From Fimbriimonadaceae bacterium (GTDB lineage: Bacteria; Armatimonadota; Fimbriimonadia; Fimbriimonadales; Fimbriimonadaceae), in contig JAIBBE010000220.1 of assembly GCA_019694835.1 (NCBI GenBank), forward strand, positions 62,001 through 126,000: a stretch of DNA of 64,000 nt, given 5' to 3'. Shown here piece by piece: positions 20,811-62,681 of the stretch. Below the pieces are notes generated by a model. That model searched no databases. It worked only from the letters and a program-made list of their open reading frames with translations, and was not told the DNA's origin. The translations under genes were made by a program, and so were the position numbers. Position 1 is the first letter of the stretch; every line of letters begins with the position of its first letter.

Positions 20811-20811
20811 T

Positions 20812-32518: not shown

Positions 32519-35319
32519 TGACGGCGTTTCTCTTTGCTTGGTCTCTCGTCGCAGGCGGCTTCCATCCGTGGGAGGATGGAGGCACAGGATCCCTGTCCCA
32601 CTCCAGTAGTGAATGGCTCGGGAGGGGACTCTCCTTCAGCCAAATCCTGCCCAGTGACGTCTCCCCCAACCCCTCTCCTCCGCCGCGAGAACATTTGGTG
32701 ACCGCGCGTCATGTGGGCGCAGGAGAGGGGGGCCGGAGTGTCCCCGATTATCCCTATGAACTCGAAAGCGACCGGCGACCGAGCATCCTCACCAAGGGCA
32801 CTTGCTTTATCCAAGGCGGCACTATCCTCACTGCCACGAGGGGAACCATCAACCAGGGGTCGATCCTCGTCCGCGACGGCAAAATCGTGGCGATTGGCAA
32901 GGACCTGAAGGCTCCCGAGGGGGTCCAAGTCATCGACGCGCGCGGCAAAGTCATCGCGCCGGGGATCGTCGACGCCCACGTCCATCGAGGTGCCGACTCG
33001 ACCAACGAAGGCAGCGACAGCATCACCGCCGAGGTCCGCATTCTCGACGTTCTCAACCCGAGCGCGAAGTCGGTGTGGCAGGCAGCCGCAAGCGGCGAGA
33101 CGACCGGCATGCTCCTCCACGGCAGCGCGAACTGCATTGGCGGCCAGAGCCTCGTGATCAAGTTCAAATACGGCCGACCGGCAAAGGAACTGCCCGTTCC
33201 CGATGCGCCGCGCATGATCAAGTTCGCGCTCGGCGAGAACGTCACCCGTTCCGGCACGGCGACCTCAGCGCGTTTCCCCAAAACCCGAATGGGTCAGCAG
33301 GCCGTTTATCGCCGCGCTTTCGAGGAAGCCAAGGCCTACATGGCGGAATGGGATAAGTACAGCGCCAGCCCTACGGGCAAGCCGCCTCGCAAAGACCTTC
33401 GACTCGAAGCCTTGGCCGACATCCTTCGCGGGAAGATCTGGGTGCAGTGCCACAGCTACCGCGCCGACGAAATGCTGATGATGGTGCGGCTCAGCCAAGA
33501 ATATGGCTTCAAGATTGGCGCGCTTCAGCACGCTCTTGAAGCCTACAAAATCGCACCCGAACTGGCAGCGGCCGGAGTCGGTGCCTCGATTTTCGTGGAT
33601 AACTGGTCGTTCAAGGTCGAAGGCTACGATGCCATCCCCTACAATGCGATGATCTGCTCCAAGGCGGGCGTCAATGTTTCGATCAACACCGACGGTACGA
33701 ACGGCACCACTGCCCTCGCCATCGACGCGGCGAAGGTCATGCGCTACGGTGGCTTGACCGAAGACGAGGCGCTGCGGATGATTACGATCAACCCGGCGCG
33801 TCAGCTTGGCATCGACAAGCGCGTGGGCAGCTTGGAAGTCGGCAAAGACGCAGATATCGTCATCTGGGACGGCCATCCCCTGAGCGTCTACAGCAAGCCC
33901 AAATTGACGCTGATCGAGGGCGAGGTGTATTTCCAGCGACGAGACGCGTTCAATGTGGATGCCGACGCCGTCGCCAAGAACGAACTCAGTCCGCGACGAT
34001 CGTTTGCCGGACCTCCGGCTTTGCCTAAGAAGTCGAACGCTTACGCTCTGACCGGTGGCACGGTCCACACGGTTAGCGGTCCAGTACTGAACGACGCGAC
34101 CGTCATCATGGAGGATGGCAAGATCACAGCGGTTGGCGAACGAGTCAACATCCCGCGCAACGCCACGCGGGTGAACATCAGAGGCCTCCACGTCTATCCA
34201 GGGCTTATTGATGGAGGCACGTCGCTCGGGCTTGCCGAGATTTCACCGATTGGTCAAATGAATGACAACCGCGAACTTGGTGACTACCAGCCCGATCTGC
34301 TTGCCCTGACTGCTTTCCAGATCGAAAGCGCTCAGTATGAGCCTGCCCGCTGCAATGGAGTTCTGAGTACATTTACCCGCCCGATCGGAGGAACGATCGC
34401 CGGTCGAGGTGCGATTATTAACCTGGCGGGATGGACGCCGGAACAGCTTGCGGTCCTCAATCCCGGCCCGCTGATGGTCAACTTCCCCGGCGGCACCGGT
34501 GCGGCATTCGATGGGATTGAATGCGGTTGCGAGGCGATCGGCGACACCGGTGGCGAGGATCAAGACGAGGCGAATCACAGCCACCCGCAGGAGACCCCCT
34601 TCGCGCAGCCCGAGGCCGACGGCGCAGTCGATGTCTTGGAGCGATGGTTCGAGCGAGCCCTTCAATACGAAAAAGAGAAAGCGACCAATCCAGCGTTCAA
34701 GAAAGACCTCGCACTTGAAGCCATGCTGCCGTACGCGAAGGGCCAATCGCTGGTCGTGCTGCGAGTGCGCAATGCCGCTTCGATTCGCACGGCGATCGAT
34801 TTTGCAAAGCGAAATGGCCTAAAAGCCGTGCTCTCGGGCGCGGCCGATGCGTGGAAGGAAGCGAAACTGATCAAGGAGAGCAACTTCCCAGTTTTGGTGA
34901 CTCCGGCTGGACGCAGCACGCTCGGGGCCAACACAACCGTCGGCACCAGCGACCCTTATGACACGCCCTATGCACTGCCCACTCTCTTGGCGCGGGCGGG
35001 GATCAAATTCGGGTTCCAGGTAGACGACAACGCCGGGGCGATGAACTTACCGATCCGGGTCGGACAGCATTGCGCTTACGGCTTGTCTCCAGAGGCGGCG
35101 TTGCGTGCGTGCACCCTTTCGACCGCCGAGATTTTCGGGGTTGCCGACAAGCTTGGCAGCATCGAGCAAGGCAAAATGGGGAACGTGTTCATCACCGATG
35201 GCGATCCGTTCGAGCTGACGACGAACGTGCACTACGCGTTCATCAACGGCCAGCCGGTCCCTCTGGAGAGCAAGCACACGCGGCTTCGGGACAAGTACCT
35301 CAAGCGATTGGAGAAGTAG
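32515..35319 (+). CDS. Exported tandem amidohydrolase (active plus degenerate domain)
   Basis: 934 residues. A hydrophobic N-terminus (MMTAFLFAWSLVAGG) is followed at residues 16-73 by sequence encoded by palindromic repeats (32562-32732). Domain 1 (about 95-500) has metal ligands H155 and H157 in IVDAHVHRG, later histidines in VQCHSYRAD and LQHALEAYK, and an Asp in SINTDGTNG, so it looks catalytically complete. Domain 2 (about 510-934) has the same fold (YPGLIDGGTSLG; KLGSIEQGKMGNVFITDGD), but the two His positions are Gly568 and Ser570. Substrate unknown. An ATGA overlap couples it to the 31244 gene. Confidence 0.8.
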   Translation: MMTAFLFAWSLVAGGFHPWEDGGTGSLSHSSSEWLGRGLSFSQILPSDVSPNPSPPPREHLVTARHVGAGEGGRSVPDYPYELESDRRPSILTKGTCFIQGGTILTATRGTINQGSILVRDGKIVAIGKDLKAPEGVQVIDARGKVIAPGIVDAHVHRGADSTNEGSDSITAEVRILDVLNPSAKSVWQAAASGETTGMLLHGSANCIGGQSLVIKFKYGRPAKELPVPDAPRMIKFALGENVTRSGTATSARFPKTRMGQQAVYRRAFEEAKAYMAEWDKYSASPTGKPPRKDLRLEALADILRGKIWVQCHSYRADEMLMMVRLSQEYGFKIGALQHALEAYKIAPELAAAGVGASIFVDNWSFKVEGYDAIPYNAMICSKAGVNVSINTDGTNGTTALAIDAAKVMRYGGLTEDEALRMITINPARQLGIDKRVGSLEVGKDADIVIWDGHPLSVYSKPKLTLIEGEVYFQRRDAFNVDADAVAKNELSPRRSFAGPPALPKKSNAYALTGGTVHTVSGPVLNDATVIMEDGKITAVGERVNIPRNATRVNIRGLHVYPGLIDGGTSLGLAEISPIGQMNDNRELGDYQPDLLALTAFQIESAQYEPARCNGVLSTFTRPIGGTIAGRGAIINLAGWTPEQLAVLNPGPLMVNFPGGTGAAFDGIECGCEAIGDTGGEDQDEANHSHPQETPFAQPEADGAVDVLERWFERALQYEKEKATNPAFKKDLALEAMLPYAKGQSLVVLRVRNAASIRTAIDFAKRNGLKAVLSGAADAWKEAKLIKESNFPVLVTPAGRSTLGANTTVGTSDPYDTPYALPTLLARAGIKFGFQVDDNAGAMNLPIRVGQHCAYGLSPEAALRACTLSTAEIFGVADKLGSIEQGKMGNVFITDGDPFELTTNVHYAFINGQPVPLESKHTRLRDKYLKRLEK
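32562..32732 (+). repeat. Family E palindrome and family A element inside a coding region
   Basis: A CCATCC..GGATGG palindrome (32562-32583) and a full family A element (32657-32732, 29-bp core) lie in frame in the 934-residue amidohydrolase. They fall between signal segment and first domain. The coding product reads DVSPNPSPPPREHL. Confidence 0.85.
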
Positions 35320-35332
35320 GAACCCGCATCCC

Positions 35333-35884
35333 ATGCCTCCGTCTTCCCACGGATGGAGGCCGACGTCCGGAAGCAGTGCGCGGTTGCCCCCTCCCCAGCC
35401 CTTCCCCCACCGGAGTGGGAGAGGGAGTCCATGCCACCGATGCCTCCATTTCGCACGGATGGAGGCCGCCGGCGGAAGCAGTGCGTGGTTGCCCCCTCTC
35501 CAACCCTCCCCCACCGGAGTGGGAGAGGGAGTCCTTGCCACCTATGCCTCCATTTCGCACGGATCGAGGCCGCCGTCGGAAGCAGTGCGTGGCTGCCCCC
35601 TCCCCAGCCCTCCCCCACCGGAGTGGGAGAGGGAGTCCATGCCACCTATGCCTCCATTTCGCACGGATGGAGGCCGTCGTCGGAAGCAGTGCGCGGTTGC
35701 CCCCTCCCCAGCCCTCCCCCACCGGAGTGGGAGAGGGAGCCCATGCCACCTATGCCTCCATTTCGCACGGATGGAGGCCGTCGTCGGAAGCAGTGCGCGG
35801 TTGCCCCCTCCCCAGCCCTCCCCCACCGGAGTGGGAGAGGGAGTCCTTGCCACCTATGCCTCCATCCTCCCACAGATGGAGGCT
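35333..35884. repeat. Five-copy 104-bp tandem array between genes
   Basis: Units begin with ATGCCTCC at 35333, 35440, 35544, 35648, 35752, and a partial sixth at 35856. The spacing is 107 once and then exactly 104. Each unit holds two hairpins: GCCTCCAT..ATGGAGGC, and CCCTCCCCCAC-CGGA-GTGGGAGAGGG. The sequence between is nearly identical across units (GAAGCAGTGCGCGGTTGCC). It fills the gap between the amidohydrolase and the convergent DUF5107 gene. Open frames across it are by-products of a stop-poor sequence. Confidence 0.9.
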
Positions 35885-35897
35885 CCGGGAAATGACT

Positions 35898-38003
35898 TTA
35901 GCCGTGGGACGCCAGCTTGCACCAAATGGTTAATCGAGTTTGCTCAGCGAATTCGGCGTGGAGTCGCTCCAATGCGACGCGCTCGATCCAGCGCCACGGG
36001 AATGGCGGCTCTGGCGGACCCGTTAGCGCCCGATGCACATGATTTGCGGCCTCCGCGCGCAGCCCGGGGCCCTCCAAGAGCGACCACGCCATCAGGAGGT
36101 GGAGCATCGGGACCGACCGGTGCCGAAGGCACTCGTCCATCCATCGGGCTGCGTCCTCGAGGCGTCGGTGGACGAGGAGCAGGCAGGCGATCTCGACAAG
36201 ATGATCGGGCGATGTCGCTAGCGGGGCAACCAGCGGGCTCGGTTCTCGATCCTGGCTCGGCGCGGAGAGGAAACTCTCCGCTCGCAGCATGGGCTCCAGG
36301 GGCGCCAAGTAGTGGGCATTGAGCAAGTCCGCCCGCTCGTCGCTGCTGCGCTGTCCGATGGATCGGAACCACCAGAGCAGCGGATCGTGGCAAGAGCGCT
36401 CAAGCGCTTCGTCGAGGAGGTGCTCGCCTTCGGACCTTTTGCCCTCGTCAAAGGCGTGAATGGCCAGTCCAAGTCGCGCTAATCCGCCAAGGAGCGGTGA
36501 ATCGAACCCAGCAATCAGGCTCTCAGCGTCGGGCTTCGCCCCTGCGAAAGGCCGCAAAACCGCCCCCTCAGCCCCTTCGTGGAGGTGATTTCGGACTGCG
36601 GACGGTAATCGTGTGTGCCATCCCCCGTGGCGCGGCCATCCTGCCCGCGCTGACGCCGAATCCGTGGACTCAGGCTCCCCTCTCCTGCGCCCGTCGGACT
36701 GGGCTAGCGGAGCATGTGGTGGCGGAGGAGAGGGGTTGAGGGAGAGGTCCGGGGGGTGCGCCGGCAGGTTGCCAGCGGTACGGGTTCCGGATGCCGGCAA
36801 GATGCCGGCGATACGGGGAGGGGACTCCCATTGCAGGATCGGGTTGCGACCCGGGGGCTTTACGGCAGCCGCATCAACCGGCTCGGGCAGGCTGACTTCG
36901 TGGATCCGCATCGGATCGAGGGTCGCGAGCGCTTCCATGGTCTGACCTGCTCGCGTTTTGATCACAATTTTGTGGTCGGACAACGGCTGGCTGGATTGGA
37001 CCATGAGCCGTTCCGGTTGGACCGACAGCGCACCGTCTCGACCTGCGTCGCACACGAACCCAACACCGGAAAAAGGAACCACGGTGATGGCCCCACTCAG
37101 CACTTCACGCGGCAAGAGCTTCTGGCGCTCCGGTCCCATTCGCCATAGCGTCAAACCTTCAGCACCCGCTTCCGGTCGAAACTGCCCCGGATCTGTTCCG
37201 ATCCACAGGCCAGCATCCCGCTCCGGGAACTCGCAGATCAGCTCACTGGAGCCACGAATCGAGGTCACTGAACCCGGCACGCCGAGCGACCAACCGAAGG
37301 CGGAGGGCCAGGTCCTCAGCTCACGGTTCATGAGCCGCAGTTCGAGTGCGAACTCGGCTCGATCGGGAGCGAGCACGATCCTCTGGTGCCAGCTGAGGCC
37401 TTGGCCGACAACCAACTCGAACATCCATAACTCGACCGGGTCATCGTCGTCCTCCGCTTCTCGGATCTGAAAGTCGACGGGCCCAAGTGCATTCGGCCGC
37501 TCTTCTCTTCCGAGAACGACCTGCCATCCGACTCCCCGTACCGCTGGCGTCCCGCCGGCATCCCCACCCCCCTCTCCTGCGCCCGCATGACTCTCGGGGT
37601 CGACGTGCTCGGTGGCGGAGGAGAGGGGCTGGGGGAGAGGTTGCGCGGCCTGTTCGTCGGATGCAAAGTTGGCACCAGCACGGGCAGGATGGATGCGCCA
37701 CGTGGTCTGGATACCTCTGCATCCACCTTCCTCCAGGTCCAGCCGCGTCAGTCGGGGCAGGATGTCGGTGCCGGTTCGCTTGTCATACAGCTCAATCATC
37801 CGGCCGCCGAGGTCAAGAGCGAAGGTGAGGCGTAGGTAAGCGTTCTCCAATACCGCCGTCCGAATCGTCGCGACCCGGCGTTGCCCAGTTCTTCGCAGCA
37901 TCGGCAGCGGATATGATTCGGGGCGATGCGCGGGATCGAGTGGAATGGTTTCCAGATTCTCGACGTCTAATTCAACGGCGTCAAGCGAAATTTCGGCGGG
38001 CAT
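35898..38003 (-). CDS. DUF5107-like protein interrupted in frame by repeats
   Basis: 701 residues. The N-terminal half fits the DUF5107 beta-sandwich found with TPR proteins (VLENAYLRLTFALDLGGRMIELYDKRTG; WHQRIVLAPDRAEFALELR). The C-terminal third is helical (LDEALERSCHDPLLWWFRSIG; DEALERS...). Two stretches come from repeats: residues about 121-155 (37538-37641) and about 396-448 (36659-36816), giving Pro/Gly/Arg-rich inserts such as LNPSPPPPHAPLAQSDG. Relatives are thought to bind or process carbohydrate, but this is unproven. Start ATG 38003. Confidence 0.55.
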   Translation of the reverse strand: MPAEISLDAVELDVENLETIPLDPAHRPESYPLPMLRRTGQRRVATIRTAVLENAYLRLTFALDLGGRMIELYDKRTGTDILPRLTRLDLEEGGCRGIQTTWRIHPARAGANFASDEQAAQPLPQPLSSATEHVDPESHAGAGEGGGDAGGTPAVRGVGWQVVLGREERPNALGPVDFQIREAEDDDDPVELWMFELVVGQGLSWHQRIVLAPDRAEFALELRLMNRELRTWPSAFGWSLGVPGSVTSIRGSSELICEFPERDAGLWIGTDPGQFRPEAGAEGLTLWRMGPERQKLLPREVLSGAITVVPFSGVGFVCDAGRDGALSVQPERLMVQSSQPLSDHKIVIKTRAGQTMEALATLDPMRIHEVSLPEPVDAAAVKPPGRNPILQWESPPRIAGILPASGTRTAGNLPAHPPDLSLNPSPPPPHAPLAQSDGRRRGEPESTDSASARAGWPRHGGWHTRLPSAVRNHLHEGAEGAVLRPFAGAKPDAESLIAGFDSPLLGGLARLGLAIHAFDEGKRSEGEHLLDEALERSCHDPLLWWFRSIGQRSSDERADLLNAHYLAPLEPMLRAESFLSAPSQDREPSPLVAPLATSPDHLVEIACLLLVHRRLEDAARWMDECLRHRSVPMLHLLMAWSLLEGPGLRAEAANHVHRALTGPPEPPFPWRWIERVALERLHAEFAEQTRLTIWCKLASHG
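36659..36816 (-). repeat. Family A and B elements inside the DUF5107-like gene, site 2
   Basis: Family A at 36677-36748 (26-bp core), family B at 36759-36781, and a decayed family B at 36786-36816. All keep the frame open and lie sense to the gene. Confidence 0.85.
37538..37641 (-). repeat. Family B and A elements inside the DUF5107-like gene, site 1
   Basis: Family B at 37538-37560 and family A at 37569-37641 with a 27-bp core. Same order and orientation relative to the gene as site 2, but read in another frame (PQPLSSATEHVDPESHAG). Confidence 0.85.
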
Positions 38004-38026
38004 GGAGTGGATTCAGGTTACCTCTC

Positions 38027-38055
38027 TGCTACAATCGCCAATGATAAGTCTATGA
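38027..38055 (+). promoter_or_regulatory. Extended -10 with a four-codon upstream ORF
   Basis: TGCTACAAT (38027-38035) is followed 5 nt later by ATG ATA AGT CTA TGA (38041-38055). The stop of this four-residue frame overlaps the ATG of the 38052 gene. Transcription would start at the mini-ORF, so the leaderless start could be the mini-ORF and the main gene could be reached by coupling. Confidence 0.4.
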
Positions 38056-38519
38056 AGGTACTTGCCAAAGTCGGACTGATCCTCCTGGTATGGATCATCA
38101 TCCCCTCGGCCCTCGGATTCGCGGGCTACTATTTCGTGGGTCCGAACTTGGGCAAGAACGGTTGGTTTGGAAACGTCGCCCAGAAGATCGCCCCGGCGGC
38201 AGCAAAGGCTGCGGCTGATAACAAGACACCCGAATCCAAGCCGGTCGAACCCCAAGTTGACGAGCCCAGCAGTTCGAAGTTCGCAGAGCCAGAGGTCGAA
38301 GTCACCGTGAGCAAGGGCGAAACCCGGCGTTCACGTGATGAAGAGCCGGTTCGACCGCGCAAGCGCAAACCCAAGAAGGTCGAAGCCCCTGCGCCCGTCG
38401 AAGACACTCCCTCCAACGTTGATCCCGCCTCCGACGCTCCAACTAAGCCGCCTTCCACGGGTGGCGAACCTCCCGTGGAAGACGGTGGCAGCGGCGGAGC
38501 CGCTGGCGACGGTCGGTAA
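38052..38519 (+). CDS. Small single-span membrane protein with disordered charged tail
   Basis: 155 residues. One transmembrane helix near the N-terminus (VGLILLVWIIIPSALGFAGYYFV) and a long tail of alternating acidic, Pro and Lys/Arg runs (EEPVRPRKRKPKKVEAPAP), ending in Gly/Ser. No domain recognised. Start at 38052; the frame extends upstream to 38007 but lacks a start signal. Convergent with the propeller gene, 7 bases apart. Confidence 0.55.
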   Translation: MKVLAKVGLILLVWIIIPSALGFAGYYFVGPNLGKNGWFGNVAQKIAPAAAKAAADNKTPESKPVEPQVDEPSSSKFAEPEVEVTVSKGETRRSRDEEPVRPRKRKPKKVEAPAPVEDTPSNVDPASDAPTKPPSTGGEPPVEDGGSGGAAGDGR

Positions 38520-38526
38520 CCGACGA

Positions 38527-39972: not shown

Positions 39973-40030
39973 GGACGAAAAGAGTTAACCCGGAGCCCGT
40001 CAGATACAGGAATTTGGGTACGTTCTTCGG

Positions 40031-41259: not shown

Positions 41260-41313
41260 GTCTCTTGAGCCGGTAGTTTGATGCACGGGGGCCCATCTTT
41301 GCCATCATGGGAC

Positions 41314-41810: not shown

Positions 41811-42665
41811 GTGGAACTTGGGACGCTGCAAATTCGGATTCAACGGAGTGAGAACCTGCCGGTCATGTCGCAGGTGGTGAGCAAGGTCCTCAAACTGGTT
41901 GAGAGCCCCAATGCGTCTCCGCGCGAGATGGAGAAGGTCGTCGAGAGCGACGCCGCGATCACCGCCAAGATCCTCAAGGTGGCGAACTCGCCATTTTATG
42001 GCGGCGCTAGTGTGCCGACGGTGGGCCGCGCCATCAGCGTGCTCGGCATGAACGCGATCAAGTCGCTCGTGGTCGGAATCGCCTATCAGCAGATGATCAG
42101 CGGCGGCCAGCAGCAGTCAGCGCAGCTCTTCAACAAGTTCGAGTTCTGGCAGCACAGCCTCGCAGTGGCAACCGGTGCTCGGTTGATAGGCAAGATCAAA
42201 GTGCCGATGAAGGCCGAAGAATTGTATGTCGCGGGCATGATGCACGACGTCGGCATGCTTATCATGGATCGGTTCATGCCGGTGGAGTTCGACAACGCCA
42301 TACGTCGAGCCCAAGACACCGGGGAGCCAATCTACCTCGCCGAAGAAGAGGTTTATGGATTTGACCACGCTACGGTTGGGGCCTTGCTCGGAGACAAGTG
42401 GAACCTGAGCCCCTTGATTCGGCGGGCCATTGAATTTCACCATCAGCCGGACAACGATGGAGACTACTTCGATACGACGAGCATCGTGACGTGCTGCAAC
42501 GTGCTCGCCCATCAAGCCGGGTTCACCAACAGTTCGACCGAATCCAACATGGAGATGGGGCTCAGTGTGGCCCAGGCGATTGACATGGATGACGAGCAGC
42601 TTCAGTCGATCCGCGACGTGATGATCAAGGAAGTCACCCTCGCTCAGCAGCTCTTCTGTATGTAG
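41811..42665 (+). CDS. HDOD-domain signalling protein
   Basis: 284 residues. The HDOD fold covers almost the whole protein: LPVMSQVVSKVLKLVES, ITAKILKVANSPFYGG, ISVLGMNAIKSLVVG, and MMHDVGMLIMDRF. No extra output domain. HDOD proteins act in signalling, often with c-di-GMP or stress regulators, and usually lack phosphohydrolase activity. GTG start; a TATTAG/GATATT box 4-6 nt upstream fits a leaderless start. Confidence 0.88.
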   Translation: MELGTLQIRIQRSENLPVMSQVVSKVLKLVESPNASPREMEKVVESDAAITAKILKVANSPFYGGASVPTVGRAISVLGMNAIKSLVVGIAYQQMISGGQQQSAQLFNKFEFWQHSLAVATGARLIGKIKVPMKAEELYVAGMMHDVGMLIMDRFMPVEFDNAIRRAQDTGEPIYLAEEEVYGFDHATVGALLGDKWNLSPLIRRAIEFHHQPDNDGDYFDTTSIVTCCNVLAHQAGFTNSSTESNMEMGLSVAQAIDMDDEQLQSIRDVMIKEVTLAQQLFCM

Positions 42666-42666
42666 A

Positions 42667-42795
42667 GTACTTTCGCCGTCCCGGCGAATCCGATTTCCTC
42701 TCAAGAGTTGTAGGATTCGCTGTCTGGATTAGACAGCGAAAAGCAAACAGCCTTTACGACATTGACCGGGGGTTCGCCGGGACGGCGAAAGTACT
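42667..42795. repeat. Family C inverted-repeat (MITE-like) element, copy 2
   Basis: Complete terminal repeats: GTACTTTCGCCGTCCCGGCG on the left and its exact complement, ending in CGGCGAAAGTAC, on the right. They surround about 80 bp that differ from copy 1 and contain a smaller inverted repeat (TTCGCTGTCT..AGACAGCGAA). It lies between the HDOD gene and the convergent glycosidase gene. Confidence 0.87.
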
Positions 42796-42806
42796 TTGGG
42801 TGTCAA

Positions 42807-45134
42807 CTACTTGACGGATGCCGTCGTCGGCTCACTCTCAATTCCCGTCCGACTGAAGGCCACGAGGGCGATCTTCTCCGCACCGGGCGCGTCGAACTCG
42901 ATCCTTGTGCCGCCACAGGTCTTGGCCAGTTGCCAGGCGCCATTTCGGAGCACAAAGACAGCGTACGTGCTGACGTGTTCGTCGCGCTTCCAGCCGATGG
43001 CCAGACTCTCGCCTTGTCGCTTGACTCCGGTCAGTATTGGCTTTGGCGGTGCTTTCTTCCCCAACCAGGGCATCGCAGGGGGTAGGGCGATCGGCTTGTA
43101 CGGTCCGCTGATCAGGGTTTTGCCAAGCCCTGCAGTGCCCCGCAGGAGCGGCTTCATGCTGAAGTGGATGTTTCCTCCAGCCTTCTTCTCCCGCGTCATC
43201 GCGATCTGGTCGGCGATTTCCTTGGCCGGCCACCCCGCCGCGACCTGGCTCGAATAGTTGCCCGGCCACACCGCACGGCCCTTGACGTTCTGGTCGAGCC
43301 ACCAGTCAAGCAACTTCTCGTAGCTTTGCGGCGCCTGCTCGATCTTCCAGTAAAGCTGCGGCGTAAAGTAGTCGCACCAGCCCTCGTGGAGCCATTTGCG
43401 GGCATCGGCATATAGCTCGTCGTACTGATCGATTCCGGCCTTGATGCCCTTGGGCACGCCTGGCCGATAGATGCCGAACGGGCTGATGCCGAATTTCACC
43501 CATGGTTTGGCATCTTTGATCGTTCGGTAGAGCGATTGGACGAAGTCGTCGACATGCTTACGGCGCCAATCCCCGCGACCGAGCTTGCCGCCGCCTGCTT
43601 TGTACCTGCCCCATGCCGGATCGTCGGGGAAGGGGTACGGGTTGCCCTGGGCATCGCGGACGGGATAGGGGTAGAAGTAGTCGTCGATGTGGATGCCGTC
43701 CACATCGTAGCGAGCCAGGATATCCTTCACCACGTCCAAGCTCTGCTTCTGGACCTCCGGCTCGGCGGGGTCCATCCACTTGAACTTCCCGTAAGTCTTG
43801 ACGAGGTCTGGTCGCCGCACGCTGACGTGGTCCGCACTGGGCTGCCCCTTTGCGGCCGGGTGCCACGCGCGATAGGGATTGAGCCAAGCGTGGAGTTCGA
43901 TGCCGCGCAGGTGGCATTCCCTGATCGCGAACGCCAGGGGGTCCCAGAGGGGCTTCGGTGCCGTACCCTGGTTGCCGGTGAGGTACTCCGACCAAGGCTC
44001 GATCTTGCTCGGATACAGCGCGTCCGCGTGAGGCCTGACCTGGAGGATGATCGCGTTGAGGTGCAAGGCGGAGCACTTCTCAATGATCGCGAGCAGTTCC
44101 CTCTTTTGCGCCGCGACCGGCAGCGTCCGCGACGACGGCCAGTCAATATTCTCCACCGACGCCACCCACACCCCCCGAAACTCGCGCGGAATCTTGAGTC
44201 CCGACAGAGTGGCGCGGGCATCCTGCCCGCGCTCGCCAGCATTTCGGTGGTAAAGCATGATTTCTGGATTCGGTTTGGCTCGTGCCGATTCGGTACGGTC
44301 CGGTCCCCTCTCCCGGGACGGGGGAGGGTTAGGGAGGGGGCGCGCATTATCGAATTGCGAATCCTCCCAGGGCGCTGCCGGCGAGACGCCAGCGGTACGG
44401 GGCTCCCCTCTCCTGCGCCCGGAAGCCTCGAAGAGCAAAAGCTGTGGTGGCGGAGGAGAGGGGTTGGGGGAGAGGTTTTGGCGAGAGGCTCCAATCGTTG
44501 AGAGGCTGCGTGCCGGCAGGTTGCCAGCGGTACGGGCCTCCCCTCTCCTGCGCCCGGAAGCCTCGAAGAGCAAAAGCTGTGGTGGCGGAGGAGAGGGGTT
44601 GGGGGAGAGGTCGAGGCGAGAGGCTCCAATCATTGAGAGGCCGCGTGCCGGCAGGTTGCCAGCGGTACGGGGCTCCCCTCTCCTGCGCCCGGAAGCCTCG
44701 AAGAGCAAAAGCTGTGGTGGCGGAGGAGAGGGGTTGGGGGAGAGGTCGAGGCGAGAGGCTCCAATCATTGAGAGGCCGCGTGCCGGCAGGTTGCCAGCGG
44801 TACGGGGCTCCCCTCTCCTGCGCCCGGAAGCCTCGAAGAGCAAAAGCTGTGGTGGCGGAGGAGAGGGGTTGGGGGAGAGGTGTTGGCGAGAGGCTCCAAT
44901 CGTTGAGAGGCTGCGTGCCGGCAGGTTGCCAGCGGTACGGGGCTCCCCTCTCCTGCGCCCGGAAGCCTCGAAGAGCAAAAGCTGTGGTGGCGGAGGAGAG
45001 GGGTTGGGGGAGAGGTTTTGGCGAGAGGCTCCAATCGTTGAGAGGCTGCGTGCCGGCGGGACGCCAGCGGTACAGTAGGGGCCTCCACCCGTGGGCGGGT
45101 GGAGGCAGAGGAGGCCCACAAGCAACCCCGTCAT
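42807..45134 (-). CDS. YngK/GHL10-type glycosidase with repeat-encoded N-terminal region
   Basis: 775 residues from the ATG that overlaps the stop of the upstream gene (ATGA, 45131-45134). Residues 1-12 (MTGLLVGLLCLH) are hydrophobic. Residues about 20-244 are five 45-residue repeats encoded by a DNA array, each with SPNPSPPPPQLLLFEASG and ARSLSTIGAS. The catalytic region starts near 315 (FRGVWVASVENIDW) and keeps GHL10 landmarks: LNAIILQVRPHADALYPS, ELHAWLNPYRAW and DGIHIDDYFYPYP. A fibronectin III-like tail closes it. The family is glycosidase-like and usually exported. The longer frame to 45488 lies inside the upstream gene and is rejected. Confidence 0.8.
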   Translation of the reverse strand: MTGLLVGLLCLHPPTGGGPYCTAGVPPARSLSTIGASRQNLSPNPSPPPPQLLLFEASGRRRGEPRTAGNLPARSLSTIGASRQHLSPNPSPPPPQLLLFEASGRRRGEPRTAGNLPARGLSMIGASRLDLSPNPSPPPPQLLLFEASGRRRGEPRTAGNLPARGLSMIGASRLDLSPNPSPPPPQLLLFEASGRRRGEARTAGNLPARSLSTIGASRQNLSPNPSPPPPQLLLFEASGRRRGEPRTAGVSPAAPWEDSQFDNARPLPNPPPSRERGPDRTESARAKPNPEIMLYHRNAGERGQDARATLSGLKIPREFRGVWVASVENIDWPSSRTLPVAAQKRELLAIIEKCSALHLNAIILQVRPHADALYPSKIEPWSEYLTGNQGTAPKPLWDPLAFAIRECHLRGIELHAWLNPYRAWHPAAKGQPSADHVSVRRPDLVKTYGKFKWMDPAEPEVQKQSLDVVKDILARYDVDGIHIDDYFYPYPVRDAQGNPYPFPDDPAWGRYKAGGGKLGRGDWRRKHVDDFVQSLYRTIKDAKPWVKFGISPFGIYRPGVPKGIKAGIDQYDELYADARKWLHEGWCDYFTPQLYWKIEQAPQSYEKLLDWWLDQNVKGRAVWPGNYSSQVAAGWPAKEIADQIAMTREKKAGGNIHFSMKPLLRGTAGLGKTLISGPYKPIALPPAMPWLGKKAPPKPILTGVKRQGESLAIGWKRDEHVSTYAVFVLRNGAWQLAKTCGGTRIEFDAPGAEKIALVAFSRTGIESEPTTASVK
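44403..45077 (-). repeat. Five-copy 135-bp tandem array inside the glycosidase gene
   Basis: Units start at 44403, 44538, 44673, 44808 and 44943, exactly 135 bp (45 codons) apart. Each holds a family A element (26-bp core, identical in all five), then a linker (GAGAGGCTCCAATCGTTGAG) and a family B element. Units differ at a few positions in the linker. A sixth family B copy precedes the array (44376-44398). A Pro/Arg-rich variant (CCCCTCTCCCGGGACGGGGG) lies at 44306-44343, also in frame. Confidence 0.93.
45080..45106. repeat. Family E palindrome near the glycosidase start
   Basis: GCCTCCACCCG / CGGGTGGAGGC with a short loop, coding for the residues just after the hydrophobic N-terminus (LHPPTGGG). 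Relatives are at 32562, in the 35333 array, and at 61738 and 61850. Confidence 0.8.
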
Positions 45135-54933: not shown

Positions 54934-54939
54934 TCCATC

Positions 54940-54945
54940 ATTATG
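54940..54945 (-). promoter_or_regulatory. -10 box of parA, leaderless layout
   Basis: CATAAT on the minus strand, 6 nt before the GTG at 54933. Confidence 0.45.
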
Positions 54946-55000
54946 CCGTGCGGGGTCCAGTGGTGGTCAGCTGCCTCCCCGTTGTCAAGTGTTTTCGGAA

Positions 55001-55182
55001 AATCCGAGCCCGGCCCGTACCGCTGGCATCCTGCCGGCAACCGCCTGGGGAAGAACTGGGCCTCCAGACCCTAACTTTTCCTATCCCATACCCTGGTATC
55101 GGATCGTCAACCTAACGGGGTCTTTCGAATAGCGAATGGGAGGGATGCCGGCAGGATGCCAGCGGTACGAGCCCGGGCCGGA
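55001..55182. repeat. Inverted pair of family B repeats
   Basis: Family B copies face each other at 55017-55039 and 55146-55168. The match extends outward (GAGCCCGG / CCGGGC), so the region could fold into a long hairpin with about 105 bp between. The gap 54934-55244 holds no gene. It separates the parAB promoter from the end of the dockerin gene. Confidence 0.85.
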
Positions 55183-55244
55183 ATCCTCACAAGAGGCGAT
55201 TCCGGCCCAGCGAAGTTTGCTCCCCAGGGAGGCGGCATGTGCGG

Positions 55245-56258: not shown

Positions 56259-56341
56259 CGGTCTATTCTCCAGAGAGATAGCCGATGATACGAGCATCTT
56301 TCTTGCGTTTAGAGAGCCGTCAACGGACGTTCAGGATCTGT

Positions 56342-56905: not shown

Positions 56906-56936
56906 CGCTCTCGTGTATACCGGGTCAAGAACAGAG

Positions 56937-57089
56937 GTGGGCGGCCGGGGTGATGAAATTGTACTTCGCGTCCTGCCGATGCACCCCCGGGCCTAACCAT
57001 CCGCGTCATCTGCGAGAGATGCTTCTCACAACGTGGTATGGCGTAAAGTGCCAGCCCCGGGGTGCACAATTTCATCACCCCGGCCACCC
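56937..57089. repeat. Family D inverted-repeat element, copy 2
   Basis: Arms (56937-56963 and 57062-57089) match copy 1 at 5587-5688, sharing GGCCGGGGTGATGAA and GTGCACAATTTCATC, here with one extra A. The interior of about 98 bp is unrelated to copy 1. It lies between the thioesterase start and the Rieske gene end. Confidence 0.85.
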
Positions 57090-57116
57090 ACTCGCACACC
57101 GAAGCCACCCGCTCGC

Positions 57117-58199
57117 TCAACCCATGAACTCTGAGAGCAGAGTGTGGAAGTGGTGGGTGCCGTTCTCCCGTGCAGGCGAGAATCGGCCCTTCTCATAGAA
57201 TCGTGAGTGCAGACCACGCTGCACCATCTCGACGACGGCTTCGTCTTCGCGTTCGACGCGGTCCAATGCAGCGCCAGCCCCACGCCCGAGTTTCGAGGCA
57301 TCCCACACATAAGGAATGAACGAGATCTTCGTCAGGTTGTGGGCAAGCGGGCGCACCACATTGATACTCAGTCCCCAGGGGTAGAAGTTGAACATCAAAT
57401 TCGGGAAGATCCAAAAATAGTAAGCTGAGATCGCTCGGCCATAGTCGGGCGAGTTCTTGGGTAGGTCGAAGACATCCTCGGCCCCTTTGGAAACCGCGAG
57501 TTGAAGGTTGCAGTATCGGAACGTCTCGACGGTGTAGTTCCCGTAGTCGATCACGGCATTGAGGTCGGCGTGGATGAAGGGGATGTGGAAGCCTTCGAGG
57601 TAGTTGTCCACGTAGAGGGCCCAGTTTGCCTTGACCATGTAGTCACGTCCGCGCGCCGGCTCGGGCTGAAAAAGGTTCAGAGGCAACCATCCGACACGCT
57701 CGATCATCGGCGCGATCCACTCCTCCAGGGAGCAAATCGGGTCCAGAGAAGCAAAGATCTGATTGTCCCAAACTCCAAAGGGGATCTTCGGCAAGCTGTC
57801 CGCCGGGCTGGGGAAGCCCTCGGCCCCCTCAAATTCCGGCATGCTCTGGAAGCAGCCATCGAGCCCAAACCGCTTCCCGTGGTACCTGCAGCGCAGAAAC
57901 CGCTCGTTCCCCGGCCCCTCGCACACAATGTTGCCGCGATGCGTGCATACATTGGAGATGCAATGGAGTTGATCTTCGGTATCGCGGGTTAGCAAGGCAG
58001 GTTCGCTCAGGCATCCGTCGAGGATCGTCAAGGGGTACACCTGGCCGGGCACCTTGACCACGTCGGTGTCAGCCACCCACTGCCAGCTTCGTGCGAAGAT
58101 CCGGTCCTTGGATTCCTCGAAGACACCGGGATCCGTGTAAAACCGCTTCGAAATGGTCGACGCGCGAGCGATATTTGAATCGACGGAAAACTGGGGCAT
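57117..58199 (-). CDS. Rieske-type ring-hydroxylating oxygenase, alpha subunit family
   Basis: 360 residues. Rieske cluster ligands C85, H87, C104 and H107 (NVCTHRGN; LRCRYHGKRF). Mononuclear iron site: NYLEGFHIPFIHADL with H205 and H210. It is closer in layout to choline/carnitine or stachydrine-type demethylating oxygenases than to benzoate enzymes, but the substrate is unknown. No reductase or ferredoxin gene is adjacent, so electrons must come from elsewhere. Confidence 0.87.
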   Translation of the reverse strand: MPQFSVDSNIARASTISKRFYTDPGVFEESKDRIFARSWQWVADTDVVKVPGQVYPLTILDGCLSEPALLTRDTEDQLHCISNVCTHRGNIVCEGPGNERFLRCRYHGKRFGLDGCFQSMPEFEGAEGFPSPADSLPKIPFGVWDNQIFASLDPICSLEEWIAPMIERVGWLPLNLFQPEPARGRDYMVKANWALYVDNYLEGFHIPFIHADLNAVIDYGNYTVETFRYCNLQLAVSKGAEDVFDLPKNSPDYGRAISAYYFWIFPNLMFNFYPWGLSINVVRPLAHNLTKISFIPYVWDASKLGRGAGAALDRVEREDEAVVEMVQRGLHSRFYEKGRFSPARENGTHHFHTLLSEFMG

Positions 58200-58205
58200 G
58201 CCGAG

Positions 58206-58211
58206 ATTCTA
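58206..58211 (-). promoter_or_regulatory. -10 box of the Rieske gene, leaderless layout
   Basis: TAGAAT on the minus strand, 6 nt before the ATG at 58199. Confidence 0.55.
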
Positions 58212-58248
58212 CTGCGTGACCTGCATCCCGACAGGTTCTCACCGGTAC

Positions 58249-59631
58249 CTAGGCGATCTGGCCGGATAGTCCCCAAAGGTGCGAAGCCGTCGCTTCCACT
58301 TGGACCAACTGCCCAACGAGATCGGGTGAACCGGGGAAGTGCATCATCCTGAACTCGCGGCTGTAACCCTTGAGAAGATCGGGGTTCTTGGGTGAACGAC
58401 CTTCCACCAAAACCTCGAAGGTCTTGCCGATACAGGCTGCGTTACGCCTTAAGGTCATCTCATTTTGGACGTCCACCAGGCGTTTCAGCCGCTCGTGTTT
58501 AACGGCGTAGGGCAGTTGCTCCATTTCGGCTGCCGGAGTTCCGGGGCGCGTGCTGTAGATGAACATGTACGCGCCGTCGAACTGGGCTTTACGCACCATG
58601 TCGAGGGTGTGACCGAACTGCTCTTCGGTCTCCCCTGGGAAGCCGACGATGATGTCGGTGGTGATGCCGATGTGAGGGACTGCCTTGCGCAGGTCGTCGA
58701 CGATCTGAAGAAAGCTCTCGGGCGTGTATTGTCGTTTCATGGCGCGGAGCATTTCCGCGTCGCCGGATTGAAGCGGCAGATGGACGTGTTCCATCACCGG
58801 CGGGCAGTCACGAATGGTCTCGATCAGATCGGCACGAAAATCTCGTGGGTAGGGGCTCGTATAGCGAATCCGTTTGAGGCTAGGAATCTCGCTGAGCTGC
58901 CAGAGCAGTTTTGAGAACGGAACGCGACCTTCCATGAGGTTCTTGCCGTAGCTATTGACCGTTTGGCCAAGCAACGTAATCTCTCGGGTGCCGAGTTCAA
59001 CCAAACGGTTAACTTCTTCAACGATATCCGAGGTTGGCCTGCTTCTCTCTCGTCCCCGAGTCGTTGGCACGATACAGAACGTGCAAAACTTGTCGCAGCC
59101 GTATTGAATCGGGACGAAGGCTTTGAGTTTGGTCGTCCGTTCGACATTGCGCTGCGGAATATCGGTGACGACCGCGCCTTTCCGTTCAGGAAGCTCGAGC
59201 CGCTTCTGGAATCTTCGAAGCTGAAGCGCCTCTTCCACCAAACCCGGAATCTCGCTGATTTGCGCGGTGCCGATGACGAAATCGACATGGGGGGCGCGCC
59301 TGCGAATCTCATCGGCACGAATCTGGGACATGCATCCGCACACGCCAAGGATGACGTCCGGCCGCTGTTTCTTGAGGGGAACGAGTTCGCCGAGCAGCGA
59401 GAAGGCTTTGTCCTCCGGCTTCTTCCGAACGCTGCAGGTGTTGAGCAGGATCACCTGTGCTTCGTGGAGGGAGGACGCTGGCTGGAAGCCAATGCCCTGC
59501 AGATACAGCCCCATTTGCTCGCTGTCCTCCTCGTTCATCTGGCACCCCCAGGTCTGCACGAAGTACGTCCCGCGAACCGTTTGGGTGCGCGGGCGGGCGA
59601 GATCGAACGGGCGGATCAGGGTATCGGCCAC
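58249..59631 (-). CDS. miaB: tRNA-2-methylthio-N6-isopentenyladenosine synthase MiaB
   Basis: 460 residues, radical-SAM methylthiotransferase. N-terminal cluster domain (TWGCQMNEEDSEQMG; NTCSVRKKPEDKAFS; GVCGCMSQ), radical-SAM CxxxCxxC in YGCDKFCTFCIVPTTRGRER, and a C-terminal TRAM domain (VEGRSPKNPDLLKGYSR). It modifies A37 of tRNAs reading UNN codons. GTG start with TACACT 8 nt upstream. 21 bases after lpxD, same strand. Confidence 0.95.
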   Translation of the reverse strand: MADTLIRPFDLARPRTQTVRGTYFVQTWGCQMNEEDSEQMGLYLQGIGFQPASSLHEAQVILLNTCSVRKKPEDKAFSLLGELVPLKKQRPDVILGVCGCMSQIRADEIRRRAPHVDFVIGTAQISEIPGLVEEALQLRRFQKRLELPERKGAVVTDIPQRNVERTTKLKAFVPIQYGCDKFCTFCIVPTTRGRERSRPTSDIVEEVNRLVELGTREITLLGQTVNSYGKNLMEGRVPFSKLLWQLSEIPSLKRIRYTSPYPRDFRADLIETIRDCPPVMEHVHLPLQSGDAEMLRAMKRQYTPESFLQIVDDLRKAVPHIGITTDIIVGFPGETEEQFGHTLDMVRKAQFDGAYMFIYSTRPGTPAAEMEQLPYAVKHERLKRLVDVQNEMTLRRNAACIGKTFEVLVEGRSPKNPDLLKGYSREFRMMHFPGSPDLVGQLVQVEATASHLWGLSGQIA

Positions 59632-59652
59632 GGGTACTCAGTGTACCGCTGG

Positions 59653-60681
59653 TTACGGCTCCAGCTTGGACAGCCGGGCTTCTAACTCCTTGATGCGGTC
59701 CAGGAGTTCGGGGAGGCGGCGCTGGAGAACGAGGAGACGGAGGGCTTCTTTGGCCGGGGTTGCTGGTGTTCCGAAGTACTCCCCTGGCTCGGTGACGGAT
59801 TTCATAATGCCGGTGCGTCCGGCGAGCATGACGTCGTCGCCGACCTCGGTGTGGTCATTGATCGCCACCTGACCGCCCATCATGACCCGCTTGCCGATCC
59901 GAACGCTGCCGCTGATGCCGGTTAACGCCGCGATCACGGTGTGCTCATCGATTTCAACGTTATGGCCGACCTGAACGAGGTTGTCGAGTTTCACCCCATC
60001 GGCAACGACCGTATCGCCGCACGTCGCGCGGTCGATGCAGACATTCGCCCCGATTTCGACATCGGCGCCGATCTGAACACCACCGACCTGGGGCACCTTC
60101 GATCGCTTCTTTCCGTCCCAGAAGTAGCCGAACCCGTCAGCGCCGATGACGGTGCCGCTGTGGATAATCGTGCGAGCACCCACCGTGACCTCTTGAATCA
60201 GGGTTACCCGGGGCAGAAGCACAGCATCTTCACCCACTTCGCAGTCTTGACCCACGTAGCAAAACGCATGAACCCTCGCACCGGCCCTAATTTCGGCTCC
60301 CGGGCCGATCACGGCGTAGGGACCGATGCTTGCCGATGGGTCGATGGTGGCGGCTGGATCAACGATCGCCGTCGGGTGGGTCCCCGCTTCGAGAGGGACG
60401 GGCCGAACGTGAAGGGCCAGCAACATGCCAAACGCGACACGAGGCATGGCGACTCGAATCGCGGGCTTTTTCGTCATCATCTCGTCGGTGACGAGAACGG
60501 CACCGACACCAGATTCCTCGACCCGGCCCAGATACCGCTCATTCTCGGCAAACGTGATGCCAAGGGGGTCATCCGAGCCAGCGGGGACGGGCCGCGACAA
60601 GGGGATGTCGGGTCCGTCGGCACGGCCTCCAATCCGCTCAGCAAGTGTCGTCAGAGTCCAGTTCGGGTTCCTTTGCGCCAT
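59653..60681 (-). CDS. lpxD: UDP-3-O-acylglucosamine N-acyltransferase
   Basis: 342 residues. N-terminal uridine-binding domain (DDPLGITFAENERYLG) followed by a left-handed beta-helix of hexapeptide repeats (IDPSASIGPYAVIGPGAEI; GTVIGADGFGYFWDG) and a helical C-terminus. It adds the N-linked acyl chain in lipid A synthesis, so the host makes an LPS-type outer membrane. It overlaps the end of the upstream lipoprotein gene by 31 bases. Confidence 0.94.
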   Translation of the reverse strand: MAQRNPNWTLTTLAERIGGRADGPDIPLSRPVPAGSDDPLGITFAENERYLGRVEESGVGAVLVTDEMMTKKPAIRVAMPRVAFGMLLALHVRPVPLEAGTHPTAIVDPAATIDPSASIGPYAVIGPGAEIRAGARVHAFCYVGQDCEVGEDAVLLPRVTLIQEVTVGARTIIHSGTVIGADGFGYFWDGKKRSKVPQVGGVQIGADVEIGANVCIDRATCGDTVVADGVKLDNLVQVGHNVEIDEHTVIAALTGISGSVRIGKRVMMGGQVAINDHTEVGDDVMLAGRTGIMKSVTEPGEYFGTPATPAKEALRLLVLQRRLPELLDRIKELEARLSKLEP

Positions 60682-61919
60682 ACGATGAATTCTTGGGTCG
60701 CATTCCTTGCGCCCTCGGCCTTTGTGGCAAGCCGATAGCCGTTGATGGAAAGCCAGATCTTCAGTTCGTCCTGAAGCTGCTTGGTCTGGACGGATTTCCA
60801 GTCTGGAAACTTTGGTTTGGGAGTCCCGATTGGGATCGGCGGTGCTTTGACCGTCGCGGTGGCCGACGGCTGAGCAGGCAGGTGGCCGGTGACGCCGAGC
60901 GCGGTCAATCCCGGACCCTCGCCATCGCTGTCGAGTACTTCCTTTGCCTTTTCCTTGGCTTCCGCGATCAGGCGGTCCTGCTTTTGGACAAACTCGACAT
61001 CGACTTGGGCGAGCTTCTGACGATAGTCAGAGTTGGCCGAATCCAACGTCGCATTGAAGTCGTTCCAGAACATGCTGCTCAGGTTGTCGAGGGTCTCGCG
61101 AAGCATCTTCGCGCGCTCGAATCGGCGGACCGCCGTCCGGTCCAGAGCATCGGGCTGACGGCGTGACTCGGGGTCGGGATCGGGAAATCCGACCGTCTCG
61201 GCAAGGCGCAGTCGAAACACCCCTGCCGGCTCAGCGTAGGTTTCGAAAATGCCCCGTGCCCCGTCATAGACGGAGTCAAGGCTTTCGTTGTAGCCCGGGA
61301 GGAGGGCGGCTTTGGCAAGGTCTGCTTCGCGCTTGGCGTCGGCCTTGGCGGCCTCAAAGAGGCGATTTTCGATCTCGCGCAGTGCCCGCTCCCTGTTCTT
61401 CTCACGGATCTCGCGTGCCTGGTCCAGACTCTCTTGGGCTGCACCCATGTACAGGGAGCTTGCGGGGAGTGCAGGGAGGACTTCAATGCTAGAAAGTCCA
61501 GGGCCTGAATTCAGGCTTTGGCCCGTGGAGGGAGCCGAGACCGATTCCATTTGCACGGCTGCGAGGTCGACGTAAACCGGTTGGGGCTTGCTAGCACAAC
61601 CAGCAAGCCCCAGGGTGGCGATCAGGATCAGCGCAAAGGAGATCTCGAGTCCAGCAATAAGACGGATCCAATCGTACCGCTGACATTCTGCCGGCACCGA
61701 ATACGGAGGATCTGCGCGGGAAGGCTGGCGTCCGGAGCATCCATCCGTGGGAGGATGGATGCATAGGTCAACTTTGGATATGCGAGGCTCCAGTTTGACG
61801 GTGGAAGGTGCCTCCAGATCTTGCCAGTGAGAAGCTAGTGGGACGTTCCTATGCATCCATCCTCCCACGGATGGATGCTCCGGACGCCGGCAGGTTGCCA
61901 GCGGTACGTTCGCGATCAC
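60651..61919 (-). CDS. Lipoprotein of the bamA-lpxD cluster, N-terminus rebuilt by repeats
   Basis: Up to 422 residues from a GTG that overlaps the ompH stop (GTGA). The lipobox LGLAGC is at residues 103-108, behind a hydrophobic stretch, and everything before about residue 82 is encoded by family B and E palindromes. Either this long pre-signal region is real or translation starts at the GTG at 61697, inside a family B repeat. There is no ATG closer to the lipobox. The mature part is long charged helices (REKNRERALREIENRLFEAA; DVEFVQKQDRLIAEAKEKAK), resembling the Skp-like protein next door. An outer-membrane assembly role is inferred from context. Confidence 0.65.
   Translation of the reverse strand: MIANVPLATCRRPEHPSVGGWMHRNVPLASHWQDLEAPSTVKLEPRISKVDLCIHPPTDGCSGRQPSRADPPYSVPAECQRYDWIRLIAGLEISFALILIATLGLAGCASKPQPVYVDLAAVQMESVSAPSTGQSLNSGPGLSSIEVLPALPASSLYMGAAQESLDQAREIREKNRERALREIENRLFEAAKADAKREADLAKAALLPGYNESLDSVYDGARGIFETYAEPAGVFRLRLAETVGFPDPDPESRRQPDALDRTAVRRFERAKMLRETLDNLSSMFWNDFNATLDSANSDYRQKLAQVDVEFVQKQDRLIAEAKEKAKEVLDSDGEGPGLTALGVTGHLPAQPSATATVKAPPIPIGTPKPKFPDWKSVQTKQLQDELKIWLSINGYRLATKAEGARNATQEFIVWRKGTRTGL
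61674..61908. repeat. Family B and E repeats at the 5' end of the lipoprotein gene
   Basis: Family B at 61674-61696, family E palindromes (CATCCATCC..GGATGGATG) near 61738-61763 and 61850-61877, and an inverted family B at about 61886-61908. The four elements form a nested inverted pair around about 85 bp. All of it is open in the lipoprotein frame. Confidence 0.8.
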
Positions 61920-62560
61920 TTATTGGCATTCATCTGTTTGACGACCGCATCGGTGACATCGTTAGCCGAGTACGGCGCCACGTTGCTTTCCAAAACGACC
62001 GCGAAGCCTTGGGCTTTTCCGACCTGGGCCAATGCGGCCTTAGCCTTCTCGATGGTTTCCTGCTGGAGCTTCTGCTGGAGGGTCGTCAAGTCTTCGGTGA
62101 AATCTCCGTTCCACTGCTCCAAAACGCCACCCATCATTTGGGCTCGCTTGGCGAATTCGTCAAGCTGCTTCTTCTCGTCCTCCGTCAGGGCTGAGCCCTT
62201 TTGGGAGAGTTCGTTGCGTTTCTTGTCGGCAGCGATGACTTCCTGCTTCACCCTCTCGAGTTCGGCTTTTTCGGGTTCAGTCGGGGTTGCCTTGAGCGTT
62301 AGATCACGAATCTTTTGGGCCTGTTCGGGGGTGAGGACCTTGTAGGTTCGCACGAAATCTACCAGGCCTTTGCGGGCGTTGACGGCGGCGTTGAGTTGGG
62401 CGGTATTCGCCTGTCCAAGCTGGCTTTGCTGGATGCACTTGTTCAGGTCAACCGTCCCCATCTTTTCGCCTGCGCCCTGAAAACCGGTGACCGCAGCGGC
62501 CCCCACGATAATGGCCGCGACCAGCCAGCCGAGTCTGTTCCACTTGAAGTTATTCTGCAT
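61916..62560 (-). CDS. ompH: OmpH/Skp-like periplasmic chaperone
   Basis: 214 residues. An N-terminal membrane or signal segment (LGWLVAAIIVGAAAVTG) precedes VDLNKCIQQSQLGQANTAQL, the OmpH start. A long amphipathic helical hairpin (EKAELERVKQEVIAADKKRN) follows, with a C-terminal strand (GFAVVLESNVAPYSANDVTD). It would hold outer-membrane proteins on the way to BamA. The ATG follows AAGGAAC. Confidence 0.87.
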   Translation of the reverse strand: MQNNFKWNRLGWLVAAIIVGAAAVTGFQGAGEKMGTVDLNKCIQQSQLGQANTAQLNAAVNARKGLVDFVRTYKVLTPEQAQKIRDLTLKATPTEPEKAELERVKQEVIAADKKRNELSQKGSALTEDEKKQLDEFAKRAQMMGGVLEQWNGDFTEDLTTLQQKLQQETIEKAKAALAQVGKAQGFAVVLESNVAPYSANDVTDAVVKQMNANK

Positions 62561-62608
62561 GTTGTTCCTTGTTTCTTCTTACGAGCGGAGATGCTAGTTC
62601 ACCCCGCT

Positions 62609-62681
62609 ACCTCTCCCCCAACCCCTCTCCTCCGCCACGGAGTGCCATGGATCGCCAAGACTACCGGCCGCAGGAGAGGGG
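62609..62681 (+). repeat. Family A element between bamA and ompH
   Basis: Arms ACCTCTCCCCCAACCCC and CGCAGGAGAGGGG around a 27-bp core. Unlike the copies inside genes, it lies antisense to the flanking genes. Confidence 0.88.

Follow-up and report, generated by a model that had tools for sequence, protein, structure and literature searches.

Introduction

Short palindromic repeats within protein-coding genes have been described before. Rickettsia palindromic elements (RPEs), reported by Ogata and others, are short palindromes that lie in frame in unrelated genes, whose products tolerate them (PMC10969869 and PMC6649704, accessible portions). Repetitive extragenic palindromic (REP) sequences occur within open reading frames (ORFs) of Opitutus terrae, Thioalkalivibrio, Thauera, Xanthomonas and others, with O. 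terrae having the most intragenic GTAG repeats (PMC3733652, accessible text). Coding palindromes are already known from these cases, and the 64,000-nt stretch of a Fimbriimonadaceae bacterium analysed here (contig JAIBBE010000220.1, positions 62,001 to 126,000; "the window") is a new case and not a new phenomenon. Several families of palindromic or hairpin units recur in the window (A, B, C, C2-like, E, E2, F and G). Some of them occupy five sites in four genes, which code for an amidohydrolase, a DUF5107-like protein (two sites), a GHL10 (YngK-like) glycosidase and a lipoprotein next to ompH (Table 1). What is new concerns the host group and the families themselves, the nest of mixed families found at each of the five gene sites, and the near-constant arms and unrelated loops of family A.

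We consider it highly probable that palindrome families of the REP/RPE kind have spread in this genome, and that in-frame insertions into genes are tolerated and read through as disordered linkers. The inserts are real and absent in relatives. The frame is conserved at the amidohydrolase site and at both DUF5107 sites, and disorder is predicted. The inserts would be translated, and the resulting linkers look neutral.

Conserved flanks place elements within coding sequence

The best named matches of the window proteins are Fimbriimonadaceae and Armatimonadota records, which presumably belong to the class Fimbriimonadia. The closest whole genome found, G081, encodes an amidohydrolase 74%, a GHL10 protein 64% and a lipoprotein 43% identical to those of the window. 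Repeat counts for the source organism refer to the window, and several cross-genome counts to 113 genomes of the class.

The firmest proof of elements within coding sequence comes from the two DUF5107 sites, since both flanks are conserved. Residues 102-157 (site 1) have no counterpart in any of the 21 relatives covering the place, in an alignment of 20 fetched loci, one of them fragmentary, and two proteins. A degenerate G unit is seen near the start of site 1 by eye only. Site 2 is a linker of uneven length, about 62 residues shorter in G081 (hand count). AlphaFold predicts two confident domains, with residues 105-150 and 398-476 below a predicted local distance difference test score (pLDDT) of 50 at a mean of 76.0. 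In the model, site 2 falls between the two domains. Site 1 is flanked by strands 98-102 and 159-164 and is therefore a loop of a beta domain (a beta-hairpin), not an interdomain linker. The original prediction, made from the sequence alone, had put all inserts at signal/domain junctions or in linkers, which holds for the amidohydrolase and site 2 but not for site 1. Matches to the DUF5107-like protein comprise three proteins, itself included, of 7,993 candidates scored, and are found in 80 of the 113 genomes. A Pfam scan assigned it no family; its relative P0006 bears PF17128, which we take to be DUF5107. Residues 1-12 of P0006 include CLGNLPAPM and resemble a B-unit peptide, perhaps from a repeat at the 5' end.

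In the amidohydrolase gene the reading frame from ATG 32518 runs from the signal-like start through the E palindrome and the A hairpin to PYELE and the catalytic core. The G081 gene follows the same upstream gene, has its start MTTILQAALALAALP... at the same junction and then continues with PYELE. Before the motif TKGTC there are 92 residues here (leading V counted) vs 46 in G081, and at most 64 among the 120 relatives listed of 7,644. Five core residues (His155, His157, His313, His339 and Asp393), which we assume to be metal ligands, do not vary across an alignment of 38 rows. In the AlphaFold model residues 1-55 and 57-75 stay below pLDDT 50, while the mean is 82.9 and 586 of 934 residues reach 90 or more; a further low stretch (662-700) is unrelated to the insert. 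Sequence comparison thus confirms an insert in frame between the predicted signal peptide and the catalytic core that is missing from the relatives compared. The inserts in both proteins, below pLDDT 50, look like the tolerated flexible linkers that had been proposed.

Four of the five sites keep the frame vs one in three by chance (P 0.045), a value that is overstated by the choice of sites for their open frames. Frame retention bears on two other explanations. Mitochondrial palindromes of Magnusiomyces are reported to be bypassed by ribosomes (PMC6649704, accessible portion), and the elements here are palindromic, GC-rich and within conserved genes as well. Bypassing is needless, however, where four of five sites keep the frame without a stop, and we regard it as extremely unlikely. 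Misjoining of repeats into genes during assembly is very unlikely, too. Repeats are prone to misassembly, and the copy number of the 135-bp array in the GHL10 gene may be wrong; however, comparison with relatives assigns the sequences on both sides of each in-gene insert to a single gene, and the junctions before the amidohydrolase and lipoprotein genes are the same as in relatives.

Insertions at the 5' ends of the GHL10 and lipoprotein genes

The GHL10 protein has 317 residues before the motif EFRG vs 20 in G081, i.e. about 297 extra residues. Among the 118 motif-bearing proteins of 120 relatives listed the median is 32.5 residues, and one multidomain relative has 1,107 residues before the motif. 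Upstream of the insert and in frame with it, the start MTGLLVGLLC shares 4 of 10 residues with MTPWLVAMVM of G081, a comparison that rests on N-terminal likeness and not on identity of the upstream neighbour. An in-frame insertion is therefore likely but not certain.

The five A copies of this insert are spaced 135 bp, exactly 45 codons. In the four full units all five variable codons alter the residue, hence there is no sign of protein-level constraint on the array. The intergenic C + E2 array has a unit of 104 nt, which is not a multiple of three; the unit of the in-gene array is one. A plasmid search with the insert returned 30 Azospirillum records; in the 20 records listed the C2-like palindrome was the sole match. 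The top-scoring match of the GHL10 protein (P0007) bears a eukaryote gene-model name (eukprot) and consists of two GHL10-like halves, pointing to transfer or contamination.

The lipoprotein insert consists of B and E units without an A copy. The protein has matches in 88 genomes, and 30 of these relatives were fetched for comparison. In these 30 the match starts at query residue 91-104; some matches beyond them start earlier, several running through stops. The start codon overlaps the upstream gene by 14 nt in 13 of the 30 fetched relatives, among them G081; the remaining 17 have theirs elsewhere. The window retains ATG 61929 with the same 14-nt overlap (MPISDR vs MRIDDR of G081). The insert breaks the frame of this ATG. 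Candidate starts are GTG 61919, GTG 61868 or ATG 61856 within the repeats, and GTG 61697 in a B unit; the last would place the lipobox Cys at residue 34 (hand count). The repeats have separated the gene from its former start codon and probably provided a replacement. The expectation that repeats lie in four genes without breaking a frame, leaving clean gaps in alignments with orthologues, is borne out at DUF5107 site 1 (the gap in 21 of 21), at site 2 and in the amidohydrolase, and likely in GHL10 (the last two proteins having fewer residues before their motifs in G081), and fails for the lipoprotein.

Many REPs at NH2 ends are possibly extragenic, with translation maybe starting downstream (PMC3733652, accessible text). 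Transferred to our case, the 5'-end inserts would be untranslated leaders and only the DUF5107 sites truly coding. The lipoprotein fits this explanation with its GTG 61697 and the lipobox Cys behind it. In the amidohydrolase, however, G081 shares both the start and the signal-like segment before the insert, at an identical gene junction, and GHL10 has a similar start upstream of its insert in frame. A downstream start would lose the signal segment. On balance we judge untranslated leaders to be unlikely as a general explanation and prefer inserts that are read through.

Repeat families in the window

Family A has the arms CTCTCCCCCAACCCCTCTCCTCCGCC (left) and GCGCAGGAGAGGGG (right), the family B unit is GCCGGCnnnnnGCCAGCGGTAC and the family E palindrome is GCCTCCATCC..GGATGGAGGC plus variants. 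Copies of A, B and E are present where they had been located initially. By reading, G starts with GTGG, B and F with GTAC and E with ATGCC or similar, while A is untagged. The inverted B pairs and F pairs have differing spacers. At least two repeat families meet at each of the five gene sites. An Rfam scan of the window returned a single tRNA and nothing else.

The window has 13 A copies at seven independent places, of which four are genic and three intergenic. Eight copies lie within open frames of three genes, and all eight are sense to the gene, as originally noted. They cannot be counted as eight events, however: five of them form one tandem array, which leaves four independent insertions (4/4 sense). 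Three of these four read ..PNPSPPP..-like, while the fourth is read in a different frame. Behind the intergenic A array (window 23287-23500, intergenic) there are imperfect repeats of about 21 nt that are rich in C.

All eight arm or unit strings are stop-free in six frames, as had been stated for the arms. We rejected such openness of a single arm as the mark of a coding element, given that 32-44% of same-length random window pieces are equally open. For all eight strings jointly simple arithmetic gives a product of about 3 in 10,000 if they are independent. As to a depletion of elements in genes, 5 of 12 hand-defined clusters lie in genes vs about 80% coding sequence (P 0.004), a rough count on a flawed hand-made gene list. 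A gene visible by eye at about 22280-22849 is missing from the list, 23245-23931 is included by mistake, and the F pair at 20808-20997 was scored as intergenic although part of it overlaps a listed ORF.

Table 1. Genes and repeat elements in the window.
Feature	Position	Strand	Remarks
Intergenic family A copy	3427..3503	+	B unit at 3275-3296 belongs here
Second inverted pair of F units	20808-20997		overlaps 5' end of listed ORF
Intergenic array	22871..23260	-	three family A copies
Amidohydrolase gene	32518..35319	+	934 aa; signal-like MTAFLFAWSLVAGG, insert, PYELE, catalytic core
E palindrome in amidohydrolase	32558..32583	+
Family A hairpin in amidohydrolase	32657..32735	+	32-nt loop; sense
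Intergenic tandem array	35330..35888 (tandem units at 35388-35907)	+	104-nt C + E2 units, E units at bounds
DUF5107-like gene	35898..38003	-	701 aa; two insert sites
DUF5107-like site 2	36576..36814	-	about residues 398-476, disordered (predicted); two B units, A, inverted G
DUF5107-like site 1	37533..37700	-	residues 102-157, 168 nt; A + B units
Intergenic inverted pair of F units	42663..42800	none
GHL10 glycosidase gene	42807..45134	-	ATG 45134 overlaps stop of upstream ThuA/3-keto-disaccharide hydrolase gene
GHL10 composite insert	44209..45111	-	E, B, five A with B units, C2-like palindrome, G
Intergenic inverted pair of B units	55014..55169	none
Lipoprotein gene adjoining ompH	60651..61919	-	open from GTG 61919; conserved start ATG 61929 in other frame
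Nested palindromes at lipoprotein 5' end	61671..61908	-	B-E-E-B
Intergenic family A copy	62609..62686	+	ompH / Omp85 gene interval

Near-constant arms and unrelated loops of family A

We collected 21 distinct A copies from the window, G081 and G049, with exact duplicates of the tandem array removed. Seventeen were kept as independent, i.e. with loops less than 75% alike. Among these the left arms are 92% and the right arms 97% alike on average. The loops are 50% alike (maximum 66%) vs 45% for shuffled loops, at a length of 29-32 nt throughout. In the 113 genomes, exact arms with a spacing of 15-45 nt allowed were found at seven places in two genomes, all with 31 nt. A 20-mer of A, searched in the window with up to four mismatches, gave 14 matches, 13 with none or one and none with two or three; the other has four and a different shape. 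By eye, AC precedes the left arm in 21 of 21 copies and the same C-C mismatch occurs in the stem of 20 of 21.

Searched against the window, the window loops gave besides the copies themselves short matches only (E 0.066 or more), and the exact 26-nt arm has no match in viral contigs. RNA folding of seven copies yielded z-scores of -0.1 to -3.6, with the best fold of one lacking the common stem. The scaffold is present with short loops in other Armatimonadota. An A-related string has 143 matches in one genome of 6.1 Mb that belongs to the phylum but to another class (G209; loci L079, L086, L091 and L096). In a further genome of the phylum a short-loop relative is situated close to the 5' end of an open frame that codes for a cytochrome c domain (L074, 302-1195, minus strand). 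The arm strings were not found in open-access PMC literature. The loops are unusual but not without precedent, because they resemble the spacers described for REP dimers, which differ in sequence at similar length (PMC3733652, accessible text).

Similar arms at fixed spacing might indicate selection at the DNA level, i.e. a functional DNA or RNA site such as a pair of protein-binding half-sites about three helical turns apart, with presence in genes being secondary. Arm identity, unrelated loops of nearly constant length, the 31 nt at all seven places despite free spacing and the near-exact 20-mer matches all speak for this. However, the binding partner is hypothetical, and finding copies via their arms while defining independence by dissimilar loops are two choices that both favour the contrast between arm and loop. 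We see selection on the arms as a tentative alternative, less likely than the spread of tolerated palindromes. More doubtful still is the idea that family A inherits only arms and spacing, with each copy receiving a different loop (about 31 nt) that is either captured or newly made when the hairpin is copied. The arms would then be the boundary of a cassette, which in genes would add a new random peptide between constant ends and, if true, act as a natural random-linker generator.

Transposase genes and comparison with known systems

In G081 six GCCTC..GAGGC palindromes, one of them imperfect, lie on either side of a Y1_Tnp gene, and one E-like unit is among them. Since palindromes flank this gene, mobility of the REP type with a REP-associated tyrosine transposase (RAYT) is the best mechanism for E-like units. 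E is the family best tied to such an arrangement, whereas B, F and G resemble tagged REPs and family A may move by another route. Y1_Tnp is present in 78 of the 113 genomes. G081 has two Y1 transposase genes (L114 4053-5287 and L115 5227-5939), each with its own palindromes nearby. L003 / G003, titled Methanoregulaceae archaeon, is grouped with genomes of the class to which the Fimbriimonadaceae record L001 belongs; its amidohydrolase is 63% identical, and it is probably a mislabelled bin.

Based on these data we propose the following course. Several short palindromic families of the REP/RPE kind would have spread through the genome, the tagged hairpins B, E, F and G being mobilised on single strands by a Y1 (RAYT-like) transposase. 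Insertions into genes would survive only at tolerant spots, such as a signal/mature junction, a surface beta-hairpin loop or an interdomain linker, and only with a net length that is a multiple of three and without stops. On translation, surviving inserts would give disordered segments with many Pro, Ser, Arg and Gly residues. Such a site would then gather more elements, and one (GHL10) would have been enlarged by tandem duplication, 45 codons per unit.

Several points weigh against this course. N-termini of 100-120 residues are seen in a few listed GHL10 relatives, too. ATG 61929 of the lipoprotein gene lies one base off the core frame, and its reading frame ends within the insert after 26 codons. 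Family A carries neither a GTAG nor a CGTC tag. The Y1 evidence comes from the relative G081 and not from the window's own genome. No A or E-like copy within a gene was shown in G081, where only some loci were scanned. For A, seven ORFs from five of nine loci gave one Pfam domain (proline dehydrogenase), with the repeat on its 5' side and outside the domain. For E-like units (14 places, 11 loci viewed) eight ORFs from six loci had no Pfam match. These controls neither show nor exclude in-gene copies in G081. Moreover, no target-site duplication or insertion-sequence link is shown here, neither having been searched for. In this the elements differ from miniature inverted-repeat transposable elements (ERIC and others), which they resemble as small non-autonomous elements with in-frame fusions (PMC10969869, accessible portion).

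The likeness to RPEs lies in in-frame insertion missing from relatives, which is seen in three of four genes and at four of five sites (for GHL10 less firmly). The elements of the window sit in Armatimonadota, another phylum than Rickettsia, and the RPE sequences themselves are uncompared. A conserved encoded peptide belongs to the description of RPEs. Here, in contrast, the reading frame of one A copy differs from that of the other three independent copies, and the loop sequences are unrelated. With GTAG/CGTC REPs our elements share hairpin units, dimers and groups, in ORFs of several phyla and sometimes with two sites per gene, and the G unit starts with GTGG as do most Opitutus GTAG-20 units (PMC3733652, accessible text). 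In contrast, B and F start with GTAC, A is untagged with a 29-32 nt loop, and the inserts mix several families. The described intragenic REP clusters measure 43-82 residues (PMC3733652, accessible text) vs about 297 in the GHL10 insert. The inverted B and F pairs of the window and the palindrome-flanked Y1 gene recall REP doublets (REPINs) with their RAYTs, the putative transposase link being seen in G081. Open-access PMC literature gave nothing on point on palindromic repeats or RAYTs in Armatimonadota. The suggested analogy to RPEs in a possibly undescribed element hence agrees with the behaviour of the inserts and with this literature result. It has to be widened insofar as REPs within ORFs are known outside Rickettsia (PMC3733652, accessible text).

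Implications

Taken together, the window extends coding palindromes to a bacterial group for which we found no report, and it shows how protein sites that tolerate insertion come to house repeats of several families. Caution is needed with gene calls in such genomes whose N-termini are long and rich in Pro/Ser/Arg, since these may represent repeat DNA. Family A offers a test case for what keeps the arms of a repeat alike.

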